From Psychromonas antarctica (GTDB lineage: Bacteria; Pseudomonadota; Gammaproteobacteria; Enterobacterales; Psychromonadaceae), in NCBI RefSeq assembly GCF_022267535.1, contig NZ_JAHNZV010000021.1, forward strand, positions 1-42,555: a stretch of 42,555 bases of DNA. The letters are read 5' to 3'. The position numbers and the translations under genes are program-made. A model generated the notes under the pieces. The model was not told the DNA's origin and did not search any database. It saw only the letters and a list, made by a program, of their open reading frames with translations. The number at the start of each line of letters is the position of its first letter. Within the stretch, counting starts at the first letter, position 1. This document shows positions 1,487-40,530 of the stretch, one piece after another.

Positions 1487-3130
1487 TTACAATTTAGCTA
1501 ATAGCAGTTGTCGATTATCACCTATAACATAAACATTTCCATCGCCAATGAGCGACAAAGTAGCAGTGACTAACCCGTGGGTATTAGGTCGTTTAATGCT
1601 TTCACTGTTAACGACAATTTGTTTTTGATGAGTAGCAAAAGTTAACTCCCCGTAACTGCTATCAACCCAGTGTTTGTCTTTATTGTATGCTCGCACTTCA
1701 TATAACAGTGTCAATGGCTGTGCCGCCACGCCACTGCGGGTGACAATTATATTATCAGCTTGTGCTTGCGCATTAACCTCAACCAATTCAGGCAAAATTC
1801 CCTTTGCTACTTTAATGCGCACGGGGTTAATAGCGACCATGCGTACATTTTCATTATCATTCATGGAAAAAGCGGCAATATAAAAACTGCCGTTGCTATC
1901 CCATGAGTCATAACCGGTAATAAAATCTTCCGATGAAGCACGTTTATCAAGCTCTTCCATATTGGCGAGTTCGAATGAGTCACCGCTGGCAATATCATAC
2001 TCATAAATAGCATTGCGGCTGGCACCCATATCACTCCGACCAATATAAATTTTCTTCTCATCTGCTGATAACTGAAATATCCAAGTTTTGGCTGAGCGGC
2101 TAAAATCAGGACGGCCTAAAAAAGTCCAACTGGCGGTGGCATCAGTAAACAGGTAGATATTGCCCTGATCATCACTGCTATAAAGTTTTTTATGTGTACG
2201 GTCCCATTGGCCCACTTCTATTGCATTCGCACCTTGCAGTGCAAACGCCGGCAATTCACCAAATCCGGACAGCGGATCGTAATACCAGACATGATTAAAA
2301 ACTCTTTCTGGCTCATCTTGATTCCATTGACGGCGCGAAGATCCCCCGGTGATGTACACTCGACCTCGTGAATCAACCCACATAAAACGATTGCTGTAGA
2401 AATAGCCATTCCATGCTGGAGGTCGACCCAAGACGGTAGTTATACCCTGCTCAACATCATATTTGAGCAGTTTGTTTTCGGGCACTGACATGCCGTAGAG
2501 CAGATTATTTTTAGTATCTTTTTGAATAGTCACAATCTGCAGATGCGCTGCGCCAACACCATTTTGTTCACTGGCACTTAAATCAAGTAACTCATTATCA
2601 ACTTTGTCATAGCCGTACCAATGAAATCCGCGTGTAGAAAGATAGCTTGTATTCATACCCGATTTATCAAGTGTGGCCACATAGACACGGCCATTATGGG
2701 CAATCGGGCGAGTATGAAATTTCTCCGCCGACTCACCGACCTGCCAGTTATTTGCAGTTTGTGATGCAGTGCGCGCATCACCCACCCAGCGTAGGGTGTT
2801 ATCACTTTGATGCATACGATATAGCATGGAATTGCTTATATGATCATGGCCCGATATATAAATATCGCCTTCAGCATCAGAGCCAACCGCTAACCAGCAT
2901 TGGTCAGGCCGTTCGCCACCAGGTGCATTCGGCAGCTGCCAAACAGTGACACCATCAATTTTGCCGGCTCTTTCCCTCGCATATGGCACACTTATCACTT
3001 CCGTTAATTGGGGAAGTGGCAAGCCCCCTTCGGGTGGAGTTTTTGATGTGCTGGCACAAGCTATTAAAGTCGCTGTTAAATAAAGTATGGCCAAGCGTCG
3101 CAAGCTTGTTAAATTGAAATAATTTGTCAC
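1487..3130 (-). CDS. Beta-propeller-like lipoprotein of unknown function
   Basis: About 547 residues from a GTG at 3130, chosen because AGGGA lies 8 nt upstream and the product then begins with a compact lipoprotein signal (TLIAC, Cys25). The open frame runs further to 3208 but that extension has no ribosome site and would bury the signal. The mature part shows repeated blade-like strands: GDIYISG, GRVYVAT, GRVYITGG, GNIYLF, KIYIGRSD, GSFYIAAF, followed by a C-terminal beta-rich region. This is the look of a six- or seven-bladed propeller of the SMP-30/NHL/Kelch sort, but no catalytic motif is recognised. It is monocistronic, sits between two glucan genes, and lacks the LacI-type operator. 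A role in sensing or binding polysaccharide at the outer membrane is possible but not shown. Confidence 0.75.
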   Translation of the reverse strand: MTNYFNLTSLRRLAILYLTATLIACASTSKTPPEGGLPLPQLTEVISVPYARERAGKIDGVTVWQLPNAPGGERPDQCWLAVGSDAEGDIYISGHDHISNSMLYRMHQSDNTLRWVGDARTASQTANNWQVGESAEKFHTRPIAHNGRVYVATLDKSGMNTSYLSTRGFHWYGYDKVDNELLDLSASEQNGVGAAHLQIVTIQKDTKNNLLYGMSVPENKLLKYDVEQGITTVLGRPPAWNGYFYSNRFMWVDSRGRVYITGGSSRRQWNQDEPERVFNHVWYYDPLSGFGELPAFALQGANAIEVGQWDRTHKKLYSSDDQGNIYLFTDATASWTFLGRPDFSRSAKTWIFQLSADEKKIYIGRSDMGASRNAIYEYDIASGDSFELANMEELDKRASSEDFITGYDSWDSNGSFYIAAFSMNDNENVRMVAINPVRIKVAKGILPELVEVNAQAQADNIIVTRSGVAAQPLTLLYEVRAYNKDKHWVDSSYGELTFATHQKQIVVNSESIKRPNTHGLVTATLSLIGDGNVYVIGDNRQLLLAKL

Positions 3131-3443
3131 TAACAATTCCCTAAAATAATAGAATGATAAAAATATAACGGCTAGTTTGCATTCTCGATCTTGCTGATTG
3201 ATAAGCAAATTAGCTTTGCCCTACAACTGGACCCAGGCCATTGGGCGTTTGCTTATAGATCGTCCCTGCTGAGAGACTAACCCGCTTTCGCCGCAAACCA
3301 CTTCAAAAATAGGGGGAAACGAGCAAGGCTAATAAGCAATAAAAACGGCCTTAAATCGCACTAGTGGATTTAAAAATCATATTAGTAATCTTCATTATTT
3401 GACAACAGCTTAGCCAGCTAGAAACAAGTATATAGATTAAAAA
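3131..3443. other. Intergenic region, nothing recognised
   Basis: Upstream region of the propeller lipoprotein gene. No gene, RNA or AGCGCT-type operator is seen; it should hold that gene's promoter. Confidence 0.5.
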
Positions 3444-3560: not shown

Positions 3561-5240
3561 CTATTTTGTAATATTGAAATCAGTGATATAAATATTATCA
3601 CCTGCGGCTCCGCCAATGCCATAAATAGCAATCTGACTAATTTTCGTTAGATTTAAAGGTAAATCAGCCAGATTAAAAGATACATCGGTCCAATTTGAGT
3701 TAACCGTAAGTGGCAGCTTAAGCTCCGCACCAGCCGCTGTAACGAAGTCTATTTCATAACCTGTAAAGTTACCCGCCGCGGCTATTTTAAAATTAACCGT
3801 GTTGTACTTAGTCAAGTCAAGATCGTATGTTAATACGCCACCGTAAATGTCGCCCATCATAGCAAGCACGGCTCCCCATCCAGCGCCTTTGGTTAGTTCC
3901 ATCGCGCTCAAACCGTCATAGACGACATCAGCAGCAAAGCTAGTTCCCGTCGACCAATCATTAATAGTAATATTACCATCATGAACAAAATTATTATCGT
4001 CAACAATGATGTCGACTTGTTCATCAGATGAGCTGATAAATACAAATTTGTCATCAGAGCTGTCTTTAACAACCGTGTTTATAACACCACTATCATAAGC
4101 CACAAAGTCGGTAATATAAATTTTCTGTGAGGCAGGCGTGCCATCTTTATAAACACCAAACAACGCTATTTGACTAACCTTAGAAAGATCCACTCCATAG
4201 CGATCTAAATTAATATCGATTGTATTCCACTCGGCCTGATCTAACAGTGTAAATCCAACTTCTTGAGTTACTTCGTAAGTGCCGGTTTTAGACGCAAGAG
4301 CTAAGGAATATCGTTCAAAATCTCCCTCGGAAGCTATTTTAAATTTGATATTGGTATAGTTAGAAAAATCAACATCATAATTATCTATATTTAAACCATC
4401 CGAAATATCGCCCTGTAGGGCAAGTACAGCGCCCCAACCTGCAACAGCTGATAGCTGCCAGCTTGCCAAATCATGATAAGTTGTAGAAGCAAGCGCCGTT
4501 CCAGTATCCCATTCACCAAAAATAACATTACCAACAGCACTATTGTTATCATCATCGACCACTAAACTGCTGGTGACTTCGGCATCAGATGATTTAAAAA
4601 CAAAGTCGCTTTCTGTATCAGTATCGATAGCAATTGCACTCTCTTTCTCAAGCTGTAAATCCGTAATATATATTTTTGAAACACTAGGCGTACCGCCAAC
4701 ACCCATTACCGCAATATAATCAATTTGTGATAAATTTAATGCGAAATCAGCAAGATTAATGGACTGTTCTTGCCAGGTAGATATTGCATCATTAACTGGC
4801 AATACCACCTCTTTACTCATGCCATTTGCAGAGATGGCAACTTTATATTGACTATAACCTCCTGAAGTCGCAAATTTAAGTTTTATTGTGTTAAATAAAC
4901 TGAAATCACCCACGATACCATCTTGAAATACCAGTACGGTTCCCCAGTTTCCCTGTTCAGCTGTTTTTATAGCAGATGTTACTGTCCAGGCATTCAGCCC
5001 ATCATAAGTAGTTTCACTAATTTGACTCCCCGTATCCCATTCGCCAACAGTGTTACCGGATGAAAAGTCAATATCACTTGTGGCGCCTGAAGATGAGATT
5101 AAAACAAACTCGTCTGCTTTAAATATTGTGTCAGTATTAACCGGATCAGTGTTAACCAGATCGGTATTAGCAGGAACGGTATTAACCGGAGCGGTGTTAA
5201 CCGAATCGCTACCTCCACAACCAGATAAAGCTAACGCCAC
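3561..5240 (-). CDS. Triple-module carbohydrate-binding-type lipoprotein, leader frameshifted
   Basis: The main reading frame codes for 559 residues with no catalytic domain. After a short linker rich in NT(D/A)PV repeats come three homologous beta-sandwich modules of about 150-170 residues, near residues 45-200, 210-385 and 395-559. Each has F(V)(F/L)(I/K)SS at its start, GEWDTG or NDWSTG, GWGAVLA or GNWGTVL, then (N)WT..(I/F)NLADF and a terminal KIYITDF strand. They resemble the galactose-binding-like modules attached to marine beta-glucanases. The only start in frame is a GTG at 5240 that lacks a ribosome site and leaves half a lipoprotein signal (ALALSGCGG). The natural start is the ATG at 5313 with AGAGGA before it, but a 22-bp tandem duplication at 5217-5260 puts it out of frame. 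So the copy as read is broken or switched off. A LacI-type operator lies at 5499-5510. Confidence 0.8.
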   Translation of the reverse strand: MALALSGCGGSDSVNTAPVNTVPANTDLVNTDPVNTDTIFKADEFVLISSSGATSDIDFSSGNTVGEWDTGSQISETTYDGLNAWTVTSAIKTAEQGNWGTVLVFQDGIVGDFSLFNTIKLKFATSGGYSQYKVAISANGMSKEVVLPVNDAISTWQEQSINLADFALNLSQIDYIAVMGVGGTPSVSKIYITDLQLEKESAIAIDTDTESDFVFKSSDAEVTSSLVVDDDNNSAVGNVIFGEWDTGTALASTTYHDLASWQLSAVAGWGAVLALQGDISDGLNIDNYDVDFSNYTNIKFKIASEGDFERYSLALASKTGTYEVTQEVGFTLLDQAEWNTIDINLDRYGVDLSKVSQIALFGVYKDGTPASQKIYITDFVAYDSGVINTVVKDSSDDKFVFISSSDEQVDIIVDDNNFVHDGNITINDWSTGTSFAADVVYDGLSAMELTKGAGWGAVLAMMGDIYGGVLTYDLDLTKYNTVNFKIAAAGNFTGYEIDFVTAAGAELKLPLTVNSNWTDVSFNLADLPLNLTKISQIAIYGIGGAAGDNIYITDFNITK

Positions 5241-5313
5241 AACCAGATAAAGCTAACGCCAAAGCCGTTGCAAGTACGGTATTTGCCAATTTATAACCTT
5301 TAATCACTTTCAT
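5209..5313 (-). pseudogene. Original 5' end (lipoprotein signal) of the triple-module gene, out of frame
   Basis: From the ATG at 5313, preceded by a good AGAGGA ribosome site, translation gives MKVIKGYKLANTV, then a full lipoprotein signal to LSGCG, and after the duplicated 22 bp ends at a TAG at 5209. The same leader, nearly residue for residue, starts the lipoprotein at 10163. Removing one 22-bp copy would join this leader to the 559-residue frame in phase. Confidence 0.85.
5217..5260. repeat. 22-bp perfect tandem duplication causing a frameshift
   Basis: 5217-5238 and 5239-5260 are identical. Because 22 is not a multiple of 3 the second copy shifts the frame directly at the lipobox cysteine. 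The homologous leader at 10163 has a single copy. Confidence 0.95.
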
Positions 5314-5498
5314 TTATTTTCCTCTCTTTTATATCTCAAAAAATTTTCATAACAAACAGGACATATATGTACACAGCAGCATTACGTTCATTTTTTTATC
5401 CATACAGATTTTAATCAGATGATTAACCTGCTTGTTTATTAGCTCATATATGGATTATATAGGTTAAGACTTAAGCAGTAAGTGACCACAACCCAATA

Positions 5499-5512
5499 TG
5501 AAAGCGCTTACA
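5499..5512. promoter_or_regulatory. LacI-type operator upstream of triple-module lipoprotein
   Basis: TGAAAGCGCTTACA with AGCGCT at 5503-5508, about 190 bp before the ATG at 5313. Close match to the other copies. Confidence 0.75.
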
Positions 5513-5655
5513 TGGCTTCGCGAGATCTGTACGTCCGCCTACACTTGGCCTGAAACTGCAATAGAAAGTCATAGATAGGTGGATAGATAAGGAACTGTTT
5601 TGTCATTTGAATTTCAAACTCATTTGATGCAGAAACTGCGGATGTACAAAAAAAA

Positions 5656-5688
5656 GGCCTTGAATCGCTGCATACTGATTCAAAGGCC
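5656..5688 (-). terminator. Terminator of the GH17 lipoprotein gene
   Basis: Inverted repeat GGCCTTGAATC with GATTCAAAGGCC (one bulged base), followed on the minus strand by a T8 run; 40 nt beyond the stop at 5728. Confidence 0.85.
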
Positions 5689-5727
5689 ATTTGGATGCTT
5701 AGATTTAATAAAAGTAACTCACTACTG

Positions 5728-7605
5728 TTATTCTAACCAAGAGATATTTCTCACTTCAATCGTACTTAGTGTAGGAGCACTACCTCCCGACTGATCGTAA
5801 ATATCAGCGATGGTAAAGGGTGAATTAACAACGCTCAAATTTGCACTACTAAAAGCAGAGAAATCACTCAAATTAACAGTATATTTAACAAAGGTGTCAG
5901 TTAGCGTGTAGTCACCAGTATTAAATCTGATCCAGTGGTTTGTGCCGCCGGACGCCGTTGTTTGAAAACCAAGGTAAAATCCAAATGCGGCATTACCTTT
6001 AATTTCAAAGGTCATCTTAGTATAATTGTTTAAATTGCTGGTCTGATCTGCGATACCCACTCCTGCTCCCCAGCCCCAAGATGATGCAATAGCGGGATCG
6101 GTTGCAACAGTTAATACACCTGCGTCATCGACACCAGCCCAAGCATTGGCAGGATTATCCCAACCGTAAGCTGTCGCGCCTTGGTATAATGCGGTGCTTA
6201 AGACAGCAAACTCACCAGTAACAGGCGCTTCAATTACAGGCGCATATTTGGGTGGAAGCACAGTTGCCATTAACGTTTCTAAATCACCCCCGAAACTTTT
6301 AGCAAATACTGAAACGTCACCGCGCGTTAAGCCTAAGTCATTTAATGTTTGAACTTTATCCCATGCAAGATATTTCACGTTACCGGCAATATCAATTAAG
6401 CCAAAATGCTTTTCTGAGTGTGATGCGTTATTAGGATCGCCTTTCCATGGTTCATCAAACGCTTCAAAGAAGAATAAAGAAGCACCAAACTCATTGGTAA
6501 ATGTGCGCATCGCATCATAAAACGCTTTTTGTTTATATTCATCAGCAACCTGAGTACCACCGGCACCAAAATTTTCAGTAGAAACGGTAGACCAGCCAGT
6601 CTCACCAAGATGGATAGGCTTAGCCGCATCTACACTATTAATAAAGTTTTGAGCAACCGTGATTTGCGAAATAGTATGCTTATAAACTCGTACCATAGCC
6701 GCATCAATTTGCTCTTTAACCGTTAACTCTTGTTCTGCAGCCGGTACTTTCCATTCAGCAGAAAAAGCGGGATCATATAACGTATCGTGGTGTGCATAGG
6801 TGTGTAATGAAATATAATCCACAGCATTAATCAATGCTTTCAAATCAACTTGTTCACCGATATTTGCATTTGCGTCATTACCGGCCCAGACAGCATGATT
6901 ATCTGAACTGGTGATCCAAATATTCTGTGTTGCAGGATCCTGCATTTTCCACGTTTGTAAATCATTAACGTGATCAAGAATGATCTTAGGCACAACATGG
7001 TACTCAGCCCAATCCACCATCGCTTCATTACCGACTGCAATCACTTTAACAATCTCAGGATAAGCAAGCGCCAATTCTTTCGCTTTAGCTATTTCACCTG
7101 CATTTTCAGGATTTTCCTGATCATGGACAATAGGAAGGTCAGTCCAAGAATTCAACGCATCGATCCAAACACCTAGCATCACATACATTTCAAAAGAATT
7201 ATCTTCCTCTTCTAGCTGTTTGATAGCTTCAAGTAAATTTTCAGTATTACTCTTACCATCAGCTGGATTTATAAAGCCTTGCGTGTTGTAGGTTCTTAGT
7301 ACCTTAATACCCATAGCAGCTAGAATTTTCATATCTTCTTTTTGCTGTGCAACGGTTGGCACGTTAGCACCTGATTCGCGGGTAGTCGTTCTCCAAGCGC
7401 CATAAGAGATAGCTAAGTAATCAGGATTACCTAGAATCTGTTCGCCTGATTTAGATAGCGGCGCATCTGTGACGATAGCTTGCGGCTGAAGTGTAACGCT
7501 ATCGTCAACGCTATCATCTGTTTTCGTTAAAGGCTCATCACCACATGCAAACATAAATATCGATATGAATGCGACTAAAAATATTTTGTAACTTGTTTTT
7601 TTCAT
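5728..7605 (-). CDS. GH17 beta-1,3-glucanase lipoprotein with C-terminal binding module
   Basis: 625 residues. A lipoprotein signal ends with FMFAC (Cys21). Residues about 55-440 form a family GH17 barrel: VIAVGNEA carries the acid/base E194 and HLGETGWS the nucleophile E335; FEAFDEPWKG, typical of bacterial GH17, follows. Residues about 470-625 form a beta-sandwich (AYGWDNPANAWAGV, TKMTFEIKG, FVKYTVNLSDF, IEVRNISW) of the same general kind as the modules on the neighbouring proteins. The protein should sit in the outer membrane or face the periplasm and act on beta-1,3-glucan or its oligomers; some GH17 bacterial enzymes also transglycosylate. AGGA precedes the ATG. It has its own operator (7745-7758) and terminator, so it is a single-gene unit. 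Confidence 0.92.
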   Translation of the reverse strand: MKKTSYKIFLVAFISIFMFACGDEPLTKTDDSVDDSVTLQPQAIVTDAPLSKSGEQILGNPDYLAISYGAWRTTTRESGANVPTVAQQKEDMKILAAMGIKVLRTYNTQGFINPADGKSNTENLLEAIKQLEEEDNSFEMYVMLGVWIDALNSWTDLPIVHDQENPENAGEIAKAKELALAYPEIVKVIAVGNEAMVDWAEYHVVPKIILDHVNDLQTWKMQDPATQNIWITSSDNHAVWAGNDANANIGEQVDLKALINAVDYISLHTYAHHDTLYDPAFSAEWKVPAAEQELTVKEQIDAAMVRVYKHTISQITVAQNFINSVDAAKPIHLGETGWSTVSTENFGAGGTQVADEYKQKAFYDAMRTFTNEFGASLFFFEAFDEPWKGDPNNASHSEKHFGLIDIAGNVKYLAWDKVQTLNDLGLTRGDVSVFAKSFGGDLETLMATVLPPKYAPVIEAPVTGEFAVLSTALYQGATAYGWDNPANAWAGVDDAGVLTVATDPAIASSWGWGAGVGIADQTSNLNNYTKMTFEIKGNAAFGFYLGFQTTASGGTNHWIRFNTGDYTLTDTFVKYTVNLSDFSAFSSANLSVVNSPFTIADIYDQSGGSAPTLSTIEVRNISWLE

Positions 7606-7744: not shown

Positions 7745-7758
7745 AGAAAGCGCTTTCT
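7745..7758. promoter_or_regulatory. LacI-type operator upstream of GH17 lipoprotein
   Basis: AGAAAGCGCTTTCT, a perfect 14-bp palindrome about 140 bp upstream of the GH17 ATG at 7605. Confidence 0.8.
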
Positions 7759-7814: not shown

Positions 7815-10163
7815 CTATTTGAAGTAAACGTTATCAACGTAAATTCTTGAAGCTGCAGTCATGCCTCCTGCATTTGTATTGTAAAAAGTCATACCAATTT
7901 GAAAAACATCTCCATAAATCATCTGACCGGTAGTCATGCTGGTTAAATCAAGATCCATAGACACCCACTGACCTGTTACCGGAGTAATAACTTCTTTCAC
8001 GTTACCGCCATTGGTTCCATCTATAACCTGTACTGCGATTGAAGTCATATCTTGAACATACCAATCCATATGCAGAACTGTTTTTCCTGATAGATCTACA
8101 TTCGGAAATTCAATCCCAGATGCATCGCCATGAGCATTCGGTGTATATCTTTTGACATTATCACCAGCAATAACGATTTCGGAAAAGGTAACACCACCCC
8201 ACCAGTCTTGAGACCAATTTGTGACTACAACATCAGCGGCTTGCGCATCACTGAATAATACAACGGCACCTGTTAAATCAGCAGCTGTGGGTGTTGGCGC
8301 TGCGGTTGCTGGGTCAACAATTGTTGCCATCACATTGATAGTTCTCGTTACTTGTGTTGCTAGGTTGCCATCAAGGTCTGTAACATCGTATGTGACTTGG
8401 AATGTGCCTTCAGCTGTTGTAACGACTGTATCTCCCCCAACAATAACATTTGCCGCAACATCACCATCAAGATTATCGGTTGCCGTAAAGCCTGGTTCGA
8501 CATAAGTATCACCAACATAAATCGTCATTGGGTTATCACCCGTTAACGTTATAGTAGGTGGTATCATCGCTGCAGTTACTGGTGTAATTGAGATATTGTC
8601 AAAAGTAACAAGCGTATCCACACCAGCACCTAGACCAAAGATTAGATCTGCCGTTGTACCCCATGTGTTAGTGGAAGTGAACACTACTTCATGGGTGTCC
8701 ATTGTTGTTGTTAAAGCAACTGTTGTATCAGGCATATATGAATTATACCAAGGAGCTCCACTTAGTAACTGCCCCACTTGAACTACCACATTTCTTGCTT
8801 CAGCGGCTCGTGCATCAAAAGTAACTTTATAGGTAGCACCTTCAGTAAGCACTGTATCAGTAGACTGTACTAATCGTCCCTGATACGCAGCAGCACCAGT
8901 CACCATGTCTACAATAGCTAATTCGCCATTTATAATGGTAGGTGTCCCTGTTCCTTCCCCGAAGGTCCACTCACCAGCTAATGCAGTTGAAAAATCGCCA
9001 TTAGTGATAATAGAAACACTCGGATCAGAGACCACAACCGTTCTTGTGACTTCAATGGCACTGTTTGACACCGCATCAGCGACGTTATATGTCACCACAT
9101 ATGTACCTGCAACTGCTGTGTTAACTGTATCTCCAGCAATCACAACGCTTAAGGCGACATCACCATCGACATTATCTGTCGCTGTAAATCCAGGCTCTAC
9201 GTAAGCGTCACCGACAACAAGTGCCATTGTGTTACCACCAGTCAGGGTGATTACCGGTGCTTCTGTATCAGTCGAACTTACAATAACGGTTCTTGTTAGT
9301 TCCACTGCGGCATTTCCGGCTGCATCCGATACGTTATAAGTTATAACGTAGGTGCCATCTACTGAAGAATCAACTACATCACCACCTAAGGTAGCAACTA
9401 AACCATTGTCAATATTATCTGAGATTGATACCCCTTCATCTACGTAGTCAGTACCATGAAACACGTTAACAGTAGCGTCACCAAGCAAACTCATTACAGG
9501 CGCTTCTGTATCTGCAACCACTCTATCTACGAAACGTACATTATCCATGCGGTAAACCGCACCTGCTGCATTACCCCAGGCTGGAAAAACCATCACTTTA
9601 TCAATGGCAGTCAGATCCAACCCTAACCCCTGAAGATCCGCTAATGTAAAACTAAAATCTTTCCAAACACCAACAAGTGGCATATCTAGTATTATTTGGG
9701 CAAATTCACCAGTTGCCCCTTCTGCATCAGAACCACCGTTACTTTCAATTTTTACTACCCAATCAGTTGTTGCGTTTTCTGGAAATGCAACCACTTTTAG
9801 ACCAAATTCTAACGTGCCCGTTGCCGCGATGGCACTAGCATCATATGCGGTTGTCGTTTGAAAACCCAAGGCATTATCTTGAATATCAGAAACAAACTCC
9901 ATCACCATACTACGTTCTGTCGATTCTAAAACAGAAGTTGGAGTCAGGCCGCCACAGCAATCATATGTAGACCAGTCAGCGCCTAAGATATCACCAAATA
10001 TGACACCGTTAACTTCCGCAGGGAAAGTTGGTGTTGTTGGTGTTGTTGGTGTTGTTGGTGTTGTAGGCTGTGTAATTGGATCATCACCACAACCAGAAAG
10101 AGCTAAGGCCAACGCCGTTGCAAGTACTGTGTTTGCTAATTTAAAACCTTTAATTACTTTCAT
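7815..10163 (-). CDS. Large non-catalytic lipoprotein with CBM-like and Ig-like modules
   Basis: 782 residues, start fixed by AAAGGA 9 nt before the ATG. A lipoprotein signal ends in LSGC (Cys25), followed by a PTT repeat linker (about 31-47). Then: a beta-sandwich module at about 53-215 ending in YRMDNVRFV; Ig-like domains of the DUF5011/HYR type at about 221-296 and 301-379, each with EAPV(M/I) and GTYV(I/V)TYNV; a CBM4/9-like module at about 385-530 beginning ITNGDFS; a third Ig-like domain at about 535-612; and a C-terminal module at about 633-782 ending SRIYVDNVYF. No glycosidase motif is present. It is likely a surface protein that holds laminarin for the GH16/GH17 enzymes, comparable in role to Bacteroidetes surface glycan-binding proteins (inference). 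Two operator-like sites lie upstream. Confidence 0.88.
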   Translation of the reverse strand: MKVIKGFKLANTVLATALALALSGCGDDPITQPTTPTTPTTPTTPTFPAEVNGVIFGDILGADWSTYDCCGGLTPTSVLESTERSMVMEFVSDIQDNALGFQTTTAYDASAIAATGTLEFGLKVVAFPENATTDWVVKIESNGGSDAEGATGEFAQIILDMPLVGVWKDFSFTLADLQGLGLDLTAIDKVMVFPAWGNAAGAVYRMDNVRFVDRVVADTEAPVMSLLGDATVNVFHGTDYVDEGVSISDNIDNGLVATLGGDVVDSSVDGTYVITYNVSDAAGNAAVELTRTVIVSSTDTEAPVITLTGGNTMALVVGDAYVEPGFTATDNVDGDVALSVVIAGDTVNTAVAGTYVVTYNVADAVSNSAIEVTRTVVVSDPSVSIITNGDFSTALAGEWTFGEGTGTPTIINGELAIVDMVTGAAAYQGRLVQSTDTVLTEGATYKVTFDARAAEARNVVVQVGQLLSGAPWYNSYMPDTTVALTTTMDTHEVVFTSTNTWGTTADLIFGLGAGVDTLVTFDNISITPVTAAMIPPTITLTGDNPMTIYVGDTYVEPGFTATDNLDGDVAANVIVGGDTVVTTAEGTFQVTYDVTDLDGNLATQVTRTINVMATIVDPATAAPTPTAADLTGAVVLFSDAQAADVVVTNWSQDWWGGVTFSEIVIAGDNVKRYTPNAHGDASGIEFPNVDLSGKTVLHMDWYVQDMTSIAVQVIDGTNGGNVKEVITPVTGQWVSMDLDLTSMTTGQMIYGDVFQIGMTFYNTNAGGMTAASRIYVDNVYFK
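10029..10068. repeat. Short in-frame repeat coding for the PTT linker
   Basis: Four tandem copies of a 9-bp unit (ggtgttgtt) in the 782-residue lipoprotein gene, coding for PTTPTTPTT. In-frame length change is possible by slippage. Confidence 0.85.
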
Positions 10164-10395: not shown

Positions 10396-10606
10396 TGAGG
10401 AGAGGATCACACTTTTGATTGCAGGAATAATATGCAAGCGTATTTATTATTGATAAAAATTGTTACGCAGTCTTTGCTGGTAAACCTAAACTTTGTAAAT
10501 TAAAGGTTACTAAAAGGTTAGTTTATTAATTCAAAGAACGGGTTGTCGATAAATTTAGCATTACATAAAAACAGTTGTGAAGTTGTTCTCAAATTTAGAT
10601 GTTAAT

Positions 10607-10624
10607 AGCGCTTATATGAGCGCT
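10607..10624. promoter_or_regulatory. Paired AGCGCT cores upstream of GH16 lipoprotein
   Basis: AGCGCTTATAT occurs twice in direct repeat, cores at 10607-10612 and 10619-10624, 12 bp apart (about one helical turn). Weaker than the full palindromes but next to a strong one at 10661. Confidence 0.5.
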
Positions 10625-10660
10625 TATATTTTAACTCAGATAGAATAACCCTTAACTAAG

Positions 10661-10672
10661 AAAGCGCTTACT
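10661..10672. promoter_or_regulatory. LacI-type operator upstream of GH16 lipoprotein
   Basis: AAAGCGCTTACT inside AAGAAAGCGCTTAC, 30 bp before the GH16 ATG at 10703, placed where it would block transcription or early elongation. Confidence 0.75.
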
Positions 10673-12911: not shown

Positions 12912-13871
12912 TTATACGCTACATTTTGCTAAACGTTCTTTGTAGAGTCCCTGCATAACCAGTTTAGGGCTACGATCAACATGAAACAATCCCCAGAATT
13001 TTTCCGGCTCTAATGGATCCGAGTCGCCTTTCCAAGGTTCATCAAACGCCTCGAAGACGAACGTCAGTATCTTTTCTGTGCTGGTCCACTCAATTAATTG
13101 CTCGTAATAAGCAGCCTGCAGTTCCTCGGAAGCATTCCAGCTATCAATCCCCCGTCCATTGGAAGCCGTTGTCCAGCCCGCCTCGGTAATGACGACTGGC
13201 TTGTCTGGATAACGATCTGCGACCGAGTAATAATTCTGTTTCGTATACTCAAGCGCGTCATCCATGGTTTTAAATTCCCATGCGGGGTAGGTATGCACCG
13301 AAAGAAAATCTAACTCAGCGGCTAAATCTTGCAGCTTATTTGTCCAGGGAACATAATTTTCACAAAAAGTAACCGGATGTTTAATCACACTTTTAATTTT
13401 GCGTACGTAGCCGATCAGGTTTTCTACTGGCACCAGATGATCCGTCCATTCTACGCTGGCTTCATTGCCTACCGAAACTGAAAAGACAATCTCAGGGTAT
13501 TTTTCCACCAAAGCGATTAAACGATCTATTTCATCACTATTATGCTGGCGGTTTTCATTGAGCTTTTCTTCGCTGAACCATGCTCCCCAAGGACACTGAG
13601 GGTTGCTCATCTCTGCCGCCATATCAACACCTAGCATCACCTTGAGATCCAACCCATCATCACGGATCACCTGTAGCACTGTTTGTGCATGCTGACCGCA
13701 ATCGTACAACCTGATAAATTTCCAGTTCTCCGCTAAAATAAGCAGATCTTCTTTTATTTCCTGGTAACTCGGATAAATTCCTAAGCAAGGATTCTGCCCT
13801 TCACGGTAGCCAGAATAACAAATAGCATTGCCATGCTGCCATTGCATCTTATTATTATGGACTAAATCCAT
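12912..13871 (-). CDS. Cytoplasmic GH17 beta-1,3-glucanase/transglycosidase, second of pair
   Basis: 319 residues from the ATG at 13871, which lies one base after the stop codon of the preceding GH17 gene with GGAG upstream. The frame continues to 14015 inside that gene, but that part reads through the neighbour's coding sequence and is not protein-like. GH17 motifs: VSVGNEAS with acid/base E137, VVITEAGW with nucleophile E230, and FVFEAFDEPWKGD, all close to the GH17 lipoprotein at 5728. No signal peptide or lipobox, so it should act in the cytoplasm on imported beta-1,3-gluco-oligosaccharides. Translationally coupled to the first GH17 and regulated through the operator at 14957. Confidence 0.9.
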   Translation of the reverse strand: MDLVHNNKMQWQHGNAICYSGYREGQNPCLGIYPSYQEIKEDLLILAENWKFIRLYDCGQHAQTVLQVIRDDGLDLKVMLGVDMAAEMSNPQCPWGAWFSEEKLNENRQHNSDEIDRLIALVEKYPEIVFSVSVGNEASVEWTDHLVPVENLIGYVRKIKSVIKHPVTFCENYVPWTNKLQDLAAELDFLSVHTYPAWEFKTMDDALEYTKQNYYSVADRYPDKPVVITEAGWTTASNGRGIDSWNASEELQAAYYEQLIEWTSTEKILTFVFEAFDEPWKGDSDPLEPEKFWGLFHVDRSPKLVMQGLYKERLAKCSV

Positions 13872-13872
13872 T

Positions 13873-14790
13873 TTATACACACTCCTGCAACTGTTGTAAG
13901 TCGTCACTATATTTGAATTTACCCTCTTTATCCCACAGTCCCCAGTAGGCACCAACATCACCTTCAACTTCCACTTTCCAGGTTTCATCAAAAGAGGAAA
14001 AATAAAATACCTCAATCCCCTCTTCTTCTGCCCATAAATAGGTATCGATAAAATATTTCATCGCGTTTTCATTAGAAGGAATCGCCCCCCCTTCCGCTGA
14101 ACCAATACTCGGCCAACCTGTTTCCGTGATAATCACCTTCTTACCGCCACCGGCACGCACTGCTCGGCGATACATATCTTTCATATATAGCAACGCGTAT
14201 TGCGCAGGACAGCCTTCCCAGAACGGATAACAATTAGCTAGAATGACATCACAGACTTGCGCGACACGGGGATGATCTTCAAATTCGTAATAAGCATCCA
14301 CATAACCGACATCAATATCAGGAAGAGCCTGCTTTGCACGCTTGATGTAGTCAATTAGCTGATCTTCAGTCAAATCTCCGCGCAGCAGTACTTCATTGCC
14401 CACGGCGAGAATAGTTGCATGCCCCGCTTTTGCAATTTCGATAGCATTAGCCAGTTCTTTTTCGTTCATTGCCAAGTCATCGCCCAGCCAGACACCGACC
14501 ATCGTATTAAGGCCGTTCTGTTGCGCAACTTTAGGGATTAGTTGATTACCATCGGTACAGGAAAATGAACGTATCCAGTTGACATTTGACTGGATAACTT
14601 TCAATCGTTCACGGATCTGTTCTTCCTTAATTTGCGTACCCGGCCCCTGCCCTTCTATATAAGGGCTAAAGGAGATGCCATGGATCTTATCCGCAATTAT
14701 CTTTGCAGCAATTCCTCCTAGCGCCTCATGAGATAGGTTTAAAAAATTAACTCCCGCTAATGACATATGTTTATTGTATTTACTCGACAC
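13873..14790 (-). CDS. Cytoplasmic GH17 beta-1,3-glucanase/transglycosidase, first of pair
   Basis: 305 residues from a GTG at 14790, chosen because GGAGAG lies just upstream; an internal ATG eight codons later has no such site. The GH17 barrel is complete: GVNFLNLS and ISFSPYIEGQGPGTQ near the start, ILAVGNEV with acid/base E133, VIITETGWPSIG with nucleophile E223, and YFSSFDETWKVE near the end. Fungal-like SFSPY start differs from the second GH17, so the pair is diverged rather than a recent duplicate. There is no export signal. Likely processes long or branched oligomers left by the phosphorylase in the cytoplasm; the exact specificity cannot be read from sequence. Confidence 0.9.
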   Translation of the reverse strand: MSSKYNKHMSLAGVNFLNLSHEALGGIAAKIIADKIHGISFSPYIEGQGPGTQIKEEQIRERLKVIQSNVNWIRSFSCTDGNQLIPKVAQQNGLNTMVGVWLGDDLAMNEKELANAIEIAKAGHATILAVGNEVLLRGDLTEDQLIDYIKRAKQALPDIDVGYVDAYYEFEDHPRVAQVCDVILANCYPFWEGCPAQYALLYMKDMYRRAVRAGGGKKVIITETGWPSIGSAEGGAIPSNENAMKYFIDTYLWAEEEGIEVFYFSSFDETWKVEVEGDVGAYWGLWDKEGKFKYSDDLQQLQECV

Positions 14791-14956: not shown

Positions 14957-14968
14957 GAAAGCGCTTTC
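14957..14968. promoter_or_regulatory. LacI-type operator upstream of GH17 pair
   Basis: GAAAGCGCTTTC, a perfect 12-bp palindrome, about 165 bp before the GTG at 14790. Confidence 0.8.
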
Positions 14969-22429: not shown

Positions 22430-22441
22430 GTAAGCGCTTTC
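22430..22441. promoter_or_regulatory. LacI-type operator proximal to porin gene
   Basis: GTAAGCGCTTTC, about 55 bp before the porin ATG at 22377; 138 bp from the next copy, a spacing that could allow looping. Confidence 0.8.
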
Positions 22442-22567: not shown

Positions 22568-22579
22568 GTAAGCGCTTTC
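22568..22579. promoter_or_regulatory. LacI-type operator in divergent porin/LacI region
   Basis: GTAAGCGCTTTC, same sequence as at 22430, between the divergent porin and regulator genes. It may serve porin control and autoregulation. The DNA from 22580 to 22860 shows no gene or other clear signal. Confidence 0.75.
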
Positions 22580-22875: not shown

Positions 22876-23919
22876 TTGATCACCATCAAGGAAGTATCCG
22901 AACTTGCCCAAGTTTCTCAGGCAACTGTTTCAAGAGCTTTAAATGGCCATCCGACAGTCAAAGAAGCGAATAAAATCAAAGTGTTTGCAGCAATAGAAAA
23001 ACTGGGTTACAAGCCGAACTCCTTTGCTCAAGCACTGGCTTCGAGCCGCTCAAACAGTATCGGCATGCTAGTAGGCTCTCTTGAAGGGCCCTTTTATGGC
23101 CCTTTGATGCATAATGCAGAAGATATTGTTCGTAAAAAAAACATGCATTTAATTGTCACGAGTGGGCAAGAATCAAAAGAAAAAGAAAAAGATTCGATTC
23201 GCTTTCTGCAGTCTAAACAAGTTGACGGCTTAATCATTCACTCAGATATGTTATCTGATAATGAATTAATACAAATAGCCAAAGAAACCACTGCAACAGT
23301 CATTCTAAACCGCTATATACCTGAACTTTCTAAACAATGTATCTGTATTGATAATGAACTTGGTGGTTATCTTGCAACTAAACATTTACTTGAATCTGGC
23401 CATCACAAAGTTGCTTGTATTACCGGGCAGCTTAGTAAAATTGACAGTCGAGATCGCTTACAAGGATATCGAAATGCACTCACTGAATATGGCGTAAAAT
23501 ATGATGCCAGTTTGATTGTAGAAGGTCGATTTGACCATCATGGTAACCATGAAAAGGTCAGACGCTTACTGGATAGGAGTAATCACATTACAGCTATTTT
23601 TTGCCAAAATGACAATATTGCTTTAGCTGTTTATGATGTCTGCAGTGAGAGAGGACTTATTATTGGTGAGGATATTTCTCTTATTGGTTTTGATAATGAT
23701 ACTTACAGCCAACACATAAGACCCAAACTCACTACGGTTAACTTCCCTGTTATCGAAATGGGCATCGAGGCAGCTAACTGCGTACTCTCTCTAGTGAGCA
23801 AAAAAACCTATTCGGTGCAAAATAAATTAGCCCCAGAGCTAGTGATCAGAGATTCAGTTAAAATAATAGACTCGAGTTATAACGAAGAAAGCAAAAAGGT
23901 AAGCAGTGTGACTTATTAA
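22876..23919 (+). CDS. LacI-family transcriptional regulator of the beta-glucan locus
   Basis: 347 residues from a TTG at 22876 with AGGAGA five bases upstream. The N-terminal helix-turn-helix is canonical (TIKEVSELAQVSQATVSRAL, then YKPN.. hinge), followed by a periplasmic-binding-protein-like sensor domain (SIGMLVGSLEGPFYGPL, IDNELGGYLATKHLLESGH, ISLIGFDND). It should bind the AGCGCT-centred palindromes found before most units here and release them on binding a glucan-derived sugar. It is the only LacI-type gene in the window, and one of the copies (22568) lies in its own upstream region. Whether it represses or activates is not visible; several operators lie close to gene starts, which favours repression. 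Confidence 0.93.
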   Translation: MITIKEVSELAQVSQATVSRALNGHPTVKEANKIKVFAAIEKLGYKPNSFAQALASSRSNSIGMLVGSLEGPFYGPLMHNAEDIVRKKNMHLIVTSGQESKEKEKDSIRFLQSKQVDGLIIHSDMLSDNELIQIAKETTATVILNRYIPELSKQCICIDNELGGYLATKHLLESGHHKVACITGQLSKIDSRDRLQGYRNALTEYGVKYDASLIVEGRFDHHGNHEKVRRLLDRSNHITAIFCQNDNIALAVYDVCSERGLIIGEDISLIGFDNDTYSQHIRPKLTTVNFPVIEMGIEAANCVLSLVSKKTYSVQNKLAPELVIRDSVKIIDSSYNEESKKVSSVTY

Positions 23920-28333: not shown

Positions 28334-28345
28334 GTAAGCGCTTAC
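28334..28345. promoter_or_regulatory. LacI-type operator abutting the phosphorylase start
   Basis: GTAAGCGCTTAC, a perfect palindrome 4 bp before the first phosphorylase ATG and in the 94-bp gap after the second ATPase gene. It suggests a separate promoter or a roadblock within the operon. Confidence 0.8.
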
Positions 28346-34095: not shown

Positions 34096-34111
34096 AAGAA
34101 AGCGCTTTCTT
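34096..34111. promoter_or_regulatory. LacI-type operator upstream of importer operon
   Basis: AAGAAAGCGCTTTCTT, a perfect 16-bp palindrome, the best copy in the window, about 95 bp before the binding-protein ATG. Confidence 0.85.
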
Positions 34112-40288: not shown

Positions 40289-40364
40289 TGGTGGGCGATA
40301 CTGGGCTTGAACCAGTGACCCCCGCCTTGTAAGGGCGGTGCTCTCCCAACTGAGCTAATCGCCC
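40289..40364 (-). tRNA. tRNA-Val (anticodon UAC)
   Basis: 76 nt with full cloverleaf: acceptor GGGCGAT/ATCGCCC, TTAGCTCAGTTGGGAGAGC D-arm, anticodon loop CTTACAA in a CCGCC/GGCGG stem, GGTTCAAGCC T-arm, and encoded CCA. Located divergent to gltX as the valU group is in E. coli. Confidence 0.97.
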
Positions 40365-40530
40365 ATCTTTAACTTTTTCAACTTCAAAATTATGAAACCT
40401 AAAGACATCAGCGTTGTTCTCCGCAAAACGGCACTAATCGCCCATCTTTAACTTTTTCAACTTCAAAATTATGAAGCCTAAAGACATCAGCGTTGTTCTC
40501 CGCAAAACGGCACTAATCGCCCATCTTTAA
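40355..40530. repeat. 79-bp tandem repeat carrying tRNA-Val 5' ends
   Basis: Units begin at 40355, 40434 and (partial) 40513, a 79-bp period with a single base change between the first two. Each starts with CTAATCGCCC, which is the complement of the first ten bases of the tRNA-Val gene, so two truncated tRNA starts precede the intact one on the minus strand. The rest of the region to 40843 has only the promoter at 40616 and the gltX leader. Confidence 0.93.

Follow-up and report, generated by a model that had tools for sequence, protein, structure and literature searches.

In the laminarin-type locus described here, a gene on the minus strand encodes what looks like a lipoprotein signal and a long carbohydrate-binding-like body, but the two are read in different frames. 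The break coincides with an exact tandem repeat, which raises the question of whether the gene carries an evolved on/off switch, an assembly flaw, the first mark of decay or just a recent mutation. The window, i.e. the whole stretch of 42,555 nucleotides that was analysed, comes from a 3.9-Mb genome, and the species is represented by a single assembly of 300 contigs. We favour, with a probability of roughly 75%, the reading that a spontaneous and recent 22-bp tandem duplication has created a loss-of-function allele, possibly revertible, of a carbohydrate-binding-like lipoprotein of the laminarin locus.

A leader and a body in different frames

The segments 5217-5238 and 5239-5260 are directly adjacent and agree in all 22 bases. 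The identity run with period 22 comprises 25 bases (5215-5239 against 5237-5261), as a 3-bp microhomology, TGG on the coding strand, extends the repeat at its flanks. The 22-bp array was also detected by Tandem Repeats Finder, and in a simple base-match model only about 1e-8 exact adjacent 22-mers are expected by chance in the window. In coding order, copy 1 (5239-5260, minus strand) lies over the lipobox, and copy 2 (5217-5238, minus strand) throws the body out of frame. The leader ORF (5209-5313, minus strand) starts with the ATG at 5313 and comprises 34 codons before its stop at 5209. Past a TAG at 5255-5253, the body frame is open from 5252 on, and the listed body ORF of 559 amino acids (3561-5240, minus strand) begins at a GTG within the repeat. 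It contains an N/T/V-rich linker, encoded after the lipobox by 5.0 copies of a degenerate 15-bp tandem repeat of triplet length (5134-5208, minus strand, 76% matches), and then three modules of about 170 residues. The preliminary description had attributed the frame difference solely to the repeat and had described the body as free of stops. Both statements hold, since the copies are exact, 22 leaves a remainder of 1 when divided by 3, the repeat alone separates the frames, and all 559 codons are open.

The leader is, as far as can be judged from its letters, a bacterial lipoprotein (type II) signal peptide ending in a lipobox with its cysteine. This assignment uses the lipobox consensus, with LSGC complete in the leader's own frame, within the first copy, and a lipobox at the equivalent place in the relatives. 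After LSGC, the leader ORF adds nine out-of-frame residues. As the lipobox is intact in the leader frame, the export signal is predicted to be undamaged, and thus disconnected from the body rather than destroyed. The earlier wording that the duplication "switches off" the signal is therefore right about the separation from the body, but not about damage to the signal itself. Similarly, the "559-residue body" is correct as an open frame, but its first eight residues, up to the cysteine, represent lipobox-region sequence rather than mature body.

Translation from the ATG at 5313 would give only the 34-codon preprolipoprotein with its stop at 5209, processing would leave a 10-residue lipopeptide, and the three-module body would no longer be produced as an exported protein. 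The body appears to have no likely in-frame start of its own. Within the first 141 codons of the body frame, a search for starts, with CTG considered in about the first 20 codons only, gave four candidates, namely CTG 5246, GTG 5240, a GTG at codon 110 and an ATG at codon 141. Inspection by eye revealed no SD-like sequence for CTG 5246 or GTG 5240, and all four were rejected, since, also by eye, none would carry a signal peptide.

If ribosomes changed frame at the end of the leader, the gene could still yield an exported lipoprotein, lengthened by a few residues behind the cysteine. The lipobox is kept, the leader ends in AGG-TAG overlapping an SD-like GGAGG, and changing frame at this point would bring signal and body into one protein, so that low-rate frameshifting near AGG-TAG could still supply some lipoprotein. 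However, no slippery sequence was recognised by eye, re-pairing in the P-site looks poor from the codon letters, and the arrangement is missing in relatives. We regard frameshifting as extremely improbable.

The protein and its locus

The body contains three repeats, each about 170 residues long; as aligned, repeat 2 shares 34% and repeat 3 shares 39% identity with repeat 1. Pfam assigns no family above cut-off to the window protein. The orthologue in genome G018 matches CIA30 (PF08547) with 35.5 bits against a cut-off of 24, and this match is absent in the other three relatives (L011, G279 and G043). An AlphaFold model built from five sequences is nearly all beta, at low confidence (pLDDT 65.8, pTM 0.39). 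The fold search ranks various large, beta-rich proteins first (TMq about 0.2), and further down there are weak matches to a CBM22 tandem, to CBM8 and to a Bacteroides surface glycan-binding protein (SGBP-B). CBM8 has the highest TMt, 0.63, among the best 50 fold matches listed. A PDB sequence search with A1 gave a single match, with E = 1. L011, from Thalassotalea sp. 42_200_T64, encodes a single protein in which a GH16 domain precedes these three modules. The body may thus consist of three CIA30/CBM-like beta-sandwich modules of a carbohydrate-binding-like type, and the intact protein would probably be a surface lipoprotein that binds glucan or sugar.

The gene is surrounded by genes for GH16 (two), GH17 (two by Pfam), GH3 and GH30 enzymes, a LamB porin, a LacI-family regulator and an ABC transporter of the oligopeptide type, and the counterpart of the neighbour at 5728-7605 in G018 is a GH17 enzyme. 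The enzyme families point to a locus for laminarin or a related beta-glucan in a Thalassotalea-type bacterium. The GH17 ORFs at 12912-14015 and 13873-14790 were considered as one frameshifted gene, but they are two genes, since both match GH17 separately and correspond to separate genes of G018 (84% and 88% identity). In its lipoprotein leader and tandem beta-sandwich modules, the protein resembles the surface glycan-binding or tandem CBM lipoproteins of beta-glucan loci, and it shares with this SGBP class the GH16, GH17, GH3, GH30 and LamB neighbours. It differs from those SGBPs in lacking a Pfam family above cut-off, in that CIA30 is seen in the orthologue only, and in that binding is a prediction. 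In the literature searched, Thalassotalea, laminarin and polysaccharide utilization were not found together.

The palindromic motif AGCGCTT, chosen after reading this locus, occurs 20 times on the two strands of the window together, against 1.18 expected, the 20 occurrences representing nine palindromic sites and two single matches. The nine operator-like AAGCGCTT sites lie at 139-148, 5501-5510, 7747-7756, 10661-10670, 14958-14967, 22431-22440, 22569-22578, 28335-28344 and 34099-34108. In the strict 14-bp form, 9 of the 15 sites of the 3.9-Mb genome fall in the window, the genome search with the pattern read backwards gave no site, and the homologous stretch of G018 (L012) has seven sites with the same core. 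The LacI-family-type palindrome TGAAAGCGCTTACA at 5499-5512 has no mismatch to the motif and is located 186 bp upstream of the ATG of the broken gene, so that a control site looks intact. The LacI-family protein encoded at 22876-23919 on the plus strand (PF00356, PF13377) is a candidate reader of these sites.

Some further features of the window were noted in passing. At 10603-10628, in the space between divergent genes, a 12-bp repeat (AGCGCTTATATG) forms two degenerate operator-like sites in tandem. At 40355-40530, on the upstream side of a tRNA-Val gene (40289-40364, minus strand), there are 2.2 copies (79 bp, 98%) of the spacer and the first bases of that gene. Finally, a GH81 gene just upstream of the G018 orthologue (L012 14501-17959) is missing at 5314-5727 here, and without it the operator-like site stands directly before the broken gene. 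A PF17652 profile search for GH81 matched G018 and nothing in this genome. The corresponding PF03639 search was uninformative, since it missed even G018, which holds the gene.

Origin and age of the second copy

The search for relatives covered the GTDB 220 contig collection as well as 24 genomes of the genus and 394 of the order; extending it to the family level added no genome to the 24 of the genus. Matches over most of the three-module length were found in G018, a member of the same genus (70% identity), L011 (56%), G279 (42%) and G043 (40%), and G004 and G005 match the body only in part. In all four whole-body relatives the lipoprotein leader is in frame with the body, and none has an exact tandem duplication (unit 8-59 bp) in the leader stretch. 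Leaders could be aligned base by base with G018 and a paralogue only, the other relatives having leaders of a different sequence family. The paralogue, a lipoprotein of 782 amino acids, has an in-frame, single-copy leader (10087-10163, minus strand) that is 88% identical in DNA over 77 bp, and the protein sequence from 10163 is 96% identical to the leader ORF over 26 amino acids. Its sole repeats are triplet-length units in the linker. It also carries a TGG pair 22 bp apart, yet it has one copy. A repeat tract of variable copy number is thus seen neither in the paralogue, which is single-copy at this site, nor in the four relatives. Since these leaders are unduplicated and in frame, the two-copy state is, by this comparison, the derived one.

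The duplication most likely arose when replication slipped from one TGG triplet to another 22 bp away, and it would have struck the lipobox codons in the recent past of the strain. Bacterial precedent for microhomology-mediated tandem duplication was not found in the literature searched. Mixing with the paralogue was considered as a source of the second copy and ruled out, as the two copies match each other and each differs from the paralogue at 3 of 22 bases.

The leader type itself (MKxIKGFKLAN...LALALSGC) is shared by lipoproteins with differing mature parts. It is present at 5236-5313 and 10077-10163 in the window, at 8947-9033 in L012, in L004 from 1174 on and in L065-L068. The DNA identity to the window's leader is 87-88% in two compared cases and 77% in a third, and some of these genes, by eye, adjoin GH16-like genes. 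A weakly similar leader (E 0.41) with an open frame of 41 amino acids lies near a contig end of the same genome (L056 1501-1581; G000:C66).

The body shows purifying selection. Over 555 codons compared with G018, dN is 0.20 and dS 1.17, which corresponds to a ratio of about 0.17. For neighbours, the ratios against G018 are 0.13 (1487-3208), 0.24 (5728-7605), and 0.09 and 0.08 (the two GH17 genes); a comparison of 782 with 943, which are partly homologous only, gave 0.46. In relative-rate tests, the changes unique to the window and to G018 number 38 and 48 with L011 as outgroup, 40 and 27 with G279, and 39 and 27 with G043. The window branch has the larger number with the latter two, but none of the chi-square values (1.16, 2.52 and 2.18, respectively) is significant. 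The 559 stop-free codons limit any unconstrained period to 0.046-0.057 substitutions per site at the 95% level, about a tenth of the branch if the pairwise dS, which is near saturation, is split evenly. In view of the low dN/dS ratio, the lack of a significant rate excess and the absence of stops, the frame break appears to be young. The preliminary description had called the change recent or reversible, and the unduplicated relatives and paralogue agree with the first of these as well.

These data also bear on the possibility that the gene is a fixed pseudogene, decaying together with other losses at the locus. The GH81 gene that adjoins the G018 orthologue was not found in this genome, as would fit such a course, but its absence may instead reflect a gain in G018. 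The stop-free body with its dN/dS of about 0.17 and unremarkable rate, and the intact operator-like site, argue against decay, which we therefore consider very unlikely.

Assembly error, switch or revertible allele

With one assembly in 300 contigs, the true genome might be single-copy and the second copy an error of sequencing or assembly. To place the repeat in context, 39 stretches of this genome (639,334 bases, window included) were scanned for exact repeats with a unit length of 8-300 bp, leaving out units that themselves had a period of 1-7; the 79-bp array at 40355 (98%) is thus outside this tally. In the 639,334 bases there was no other exact non-triplet tandem duplication with a unit of at least 12 bp, which gives no indication of a class of such sites. 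At 11 bp, also a non-triplet length, the sample contained three exact duplications (L019, L036 and L044), so that duplications of shorter units do occur elsewhere in this genome. The lack of a second such repeat in this sample speaks against an assembly error, and a false exact duplication of 22 bp is an unusual kind of assembly error. Moreover, a scan of homologous coding sequence, blind to short leaders such as the window's, detected no frameshift-like breaks in 88,714 bases of this genome. It detected 1 in 48,191 bases of G004 and 8 in 78,530 bases of G022, one of the eight being in L072, a stretch picked for the G022 leader described below. This argues that the assembly of the window is good. 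As the 3 of 22 differences also exclude mixing with the paralogue, an assembly error is unlikely, though of the alternatives it is the one that we take most seriously.

The preliminary description had raised the possibility of a reversible slippage switch. As an evolved trait, this would mean that gain and loss of 22 bp toggle a laminarin-binding surface lipoprotein, for example for escape from phages or grazers or as a bet on substrates. A surface-protein gene that carries a perfect non-triplet tandem repeat at its start and keeps its body and operator-like site intact is what such a switch might look like. However, there are just two copies with an identity run of 25 bp, and not a repeat tract. 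A frame-changing leader duplication is present in none of the four whole-body relatives, and the paralogue with the same TGG pair likewise has none. Among the 24 genus genomes, ten leader matches were found in seven genomes, and eight of them sit in open frames of at least 284 amino acids, the 284-residue frame being the first part of a broken G022 gene. The two in short frames are this gene and another one in G022.

In the latter, the leader is out of frame at the lipobox, with a frame of 29 codons ahead of an open body of 947 amino acids. It is one of two broken lipoprotein or binding genes (L072 8324-11164 and 11629-14798) in a laminarin-type locus. The case was dropped as support for recurrence and is probably an assembly indel, since G022 looks indel-prone (about one frameshift-like break per 10 kb) and a further broken gene lies in the same 20-kb stretch. 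It is even less probable than decay that the lipobox of the shared leader is a hot spot at which Thalassotalea laminarin-locus lipoproteins are switched, by 22 bp here and by one base in G022, so that clonal cells differ in glucan-binding display. The evolved switch is without comparative support, and we did not retain it as the explanation; it is improbable, somewhat less so than decay.

Reversibility does not require an evolved switch. In the preferred reading of a recent duplication allele, which accounts for the exact repeat, the microhomology at its junction and the constrained body, the repeat geometry would let reverse slippage remove the extra copy. Reversion through copy loss, perhaps at a low rate, is thus plausible and would undo the allele. 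Waite et al. (2001, 2003) reportedly described tandem sequence duplications that arise spontaneously in capsule genes of the pneumococcus (type 3 locus, cap8E and tts). The available part of PMC4243769 describes duplications in such genes as reversible, and this and PMC4022640 have been the precedent for a switch. According to PMC4022640, insertions no longer than 9 bp revert at a rate not exceeding about 1e-5, whereas the unit is 22 bp here. According to the portion available of PMC6686034, an agrC duplication plus inversion was revertible, and an agrA duplication was found without a revertant. The pneumococcal duplications, as far as these sources describe them, are alike in that a short in-gene tandem duplication breaks the frame and can be lost. 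They differ in that reversion and phase variation were reported there, whereas here there is a single sequence, of a binding-like lipoprotein in a marine bacterium. In phase variation by simple sequence repeats and slipped-strand mispairing, as outlined in the available part of a review (PMC11868660), copy number likewise shifts the frame near the start of surface-protein genes. In contrast, the present gene has two copies of a 22-bp unit, no tract and no counterpart in relatives.

The gene thus appears to add one more case of a short tandem duplication that silences a gene and may perhaps be undone. Where relatives have a constrained and probably glucan-binding lipoprotein, a gene caller would see a peptide of 34 amino acids and a body without a leader. 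If both states were present in one population, they would provide a simple case in which marine laminarin degraders turn the display of polysaccharide-binding proteins on and off.
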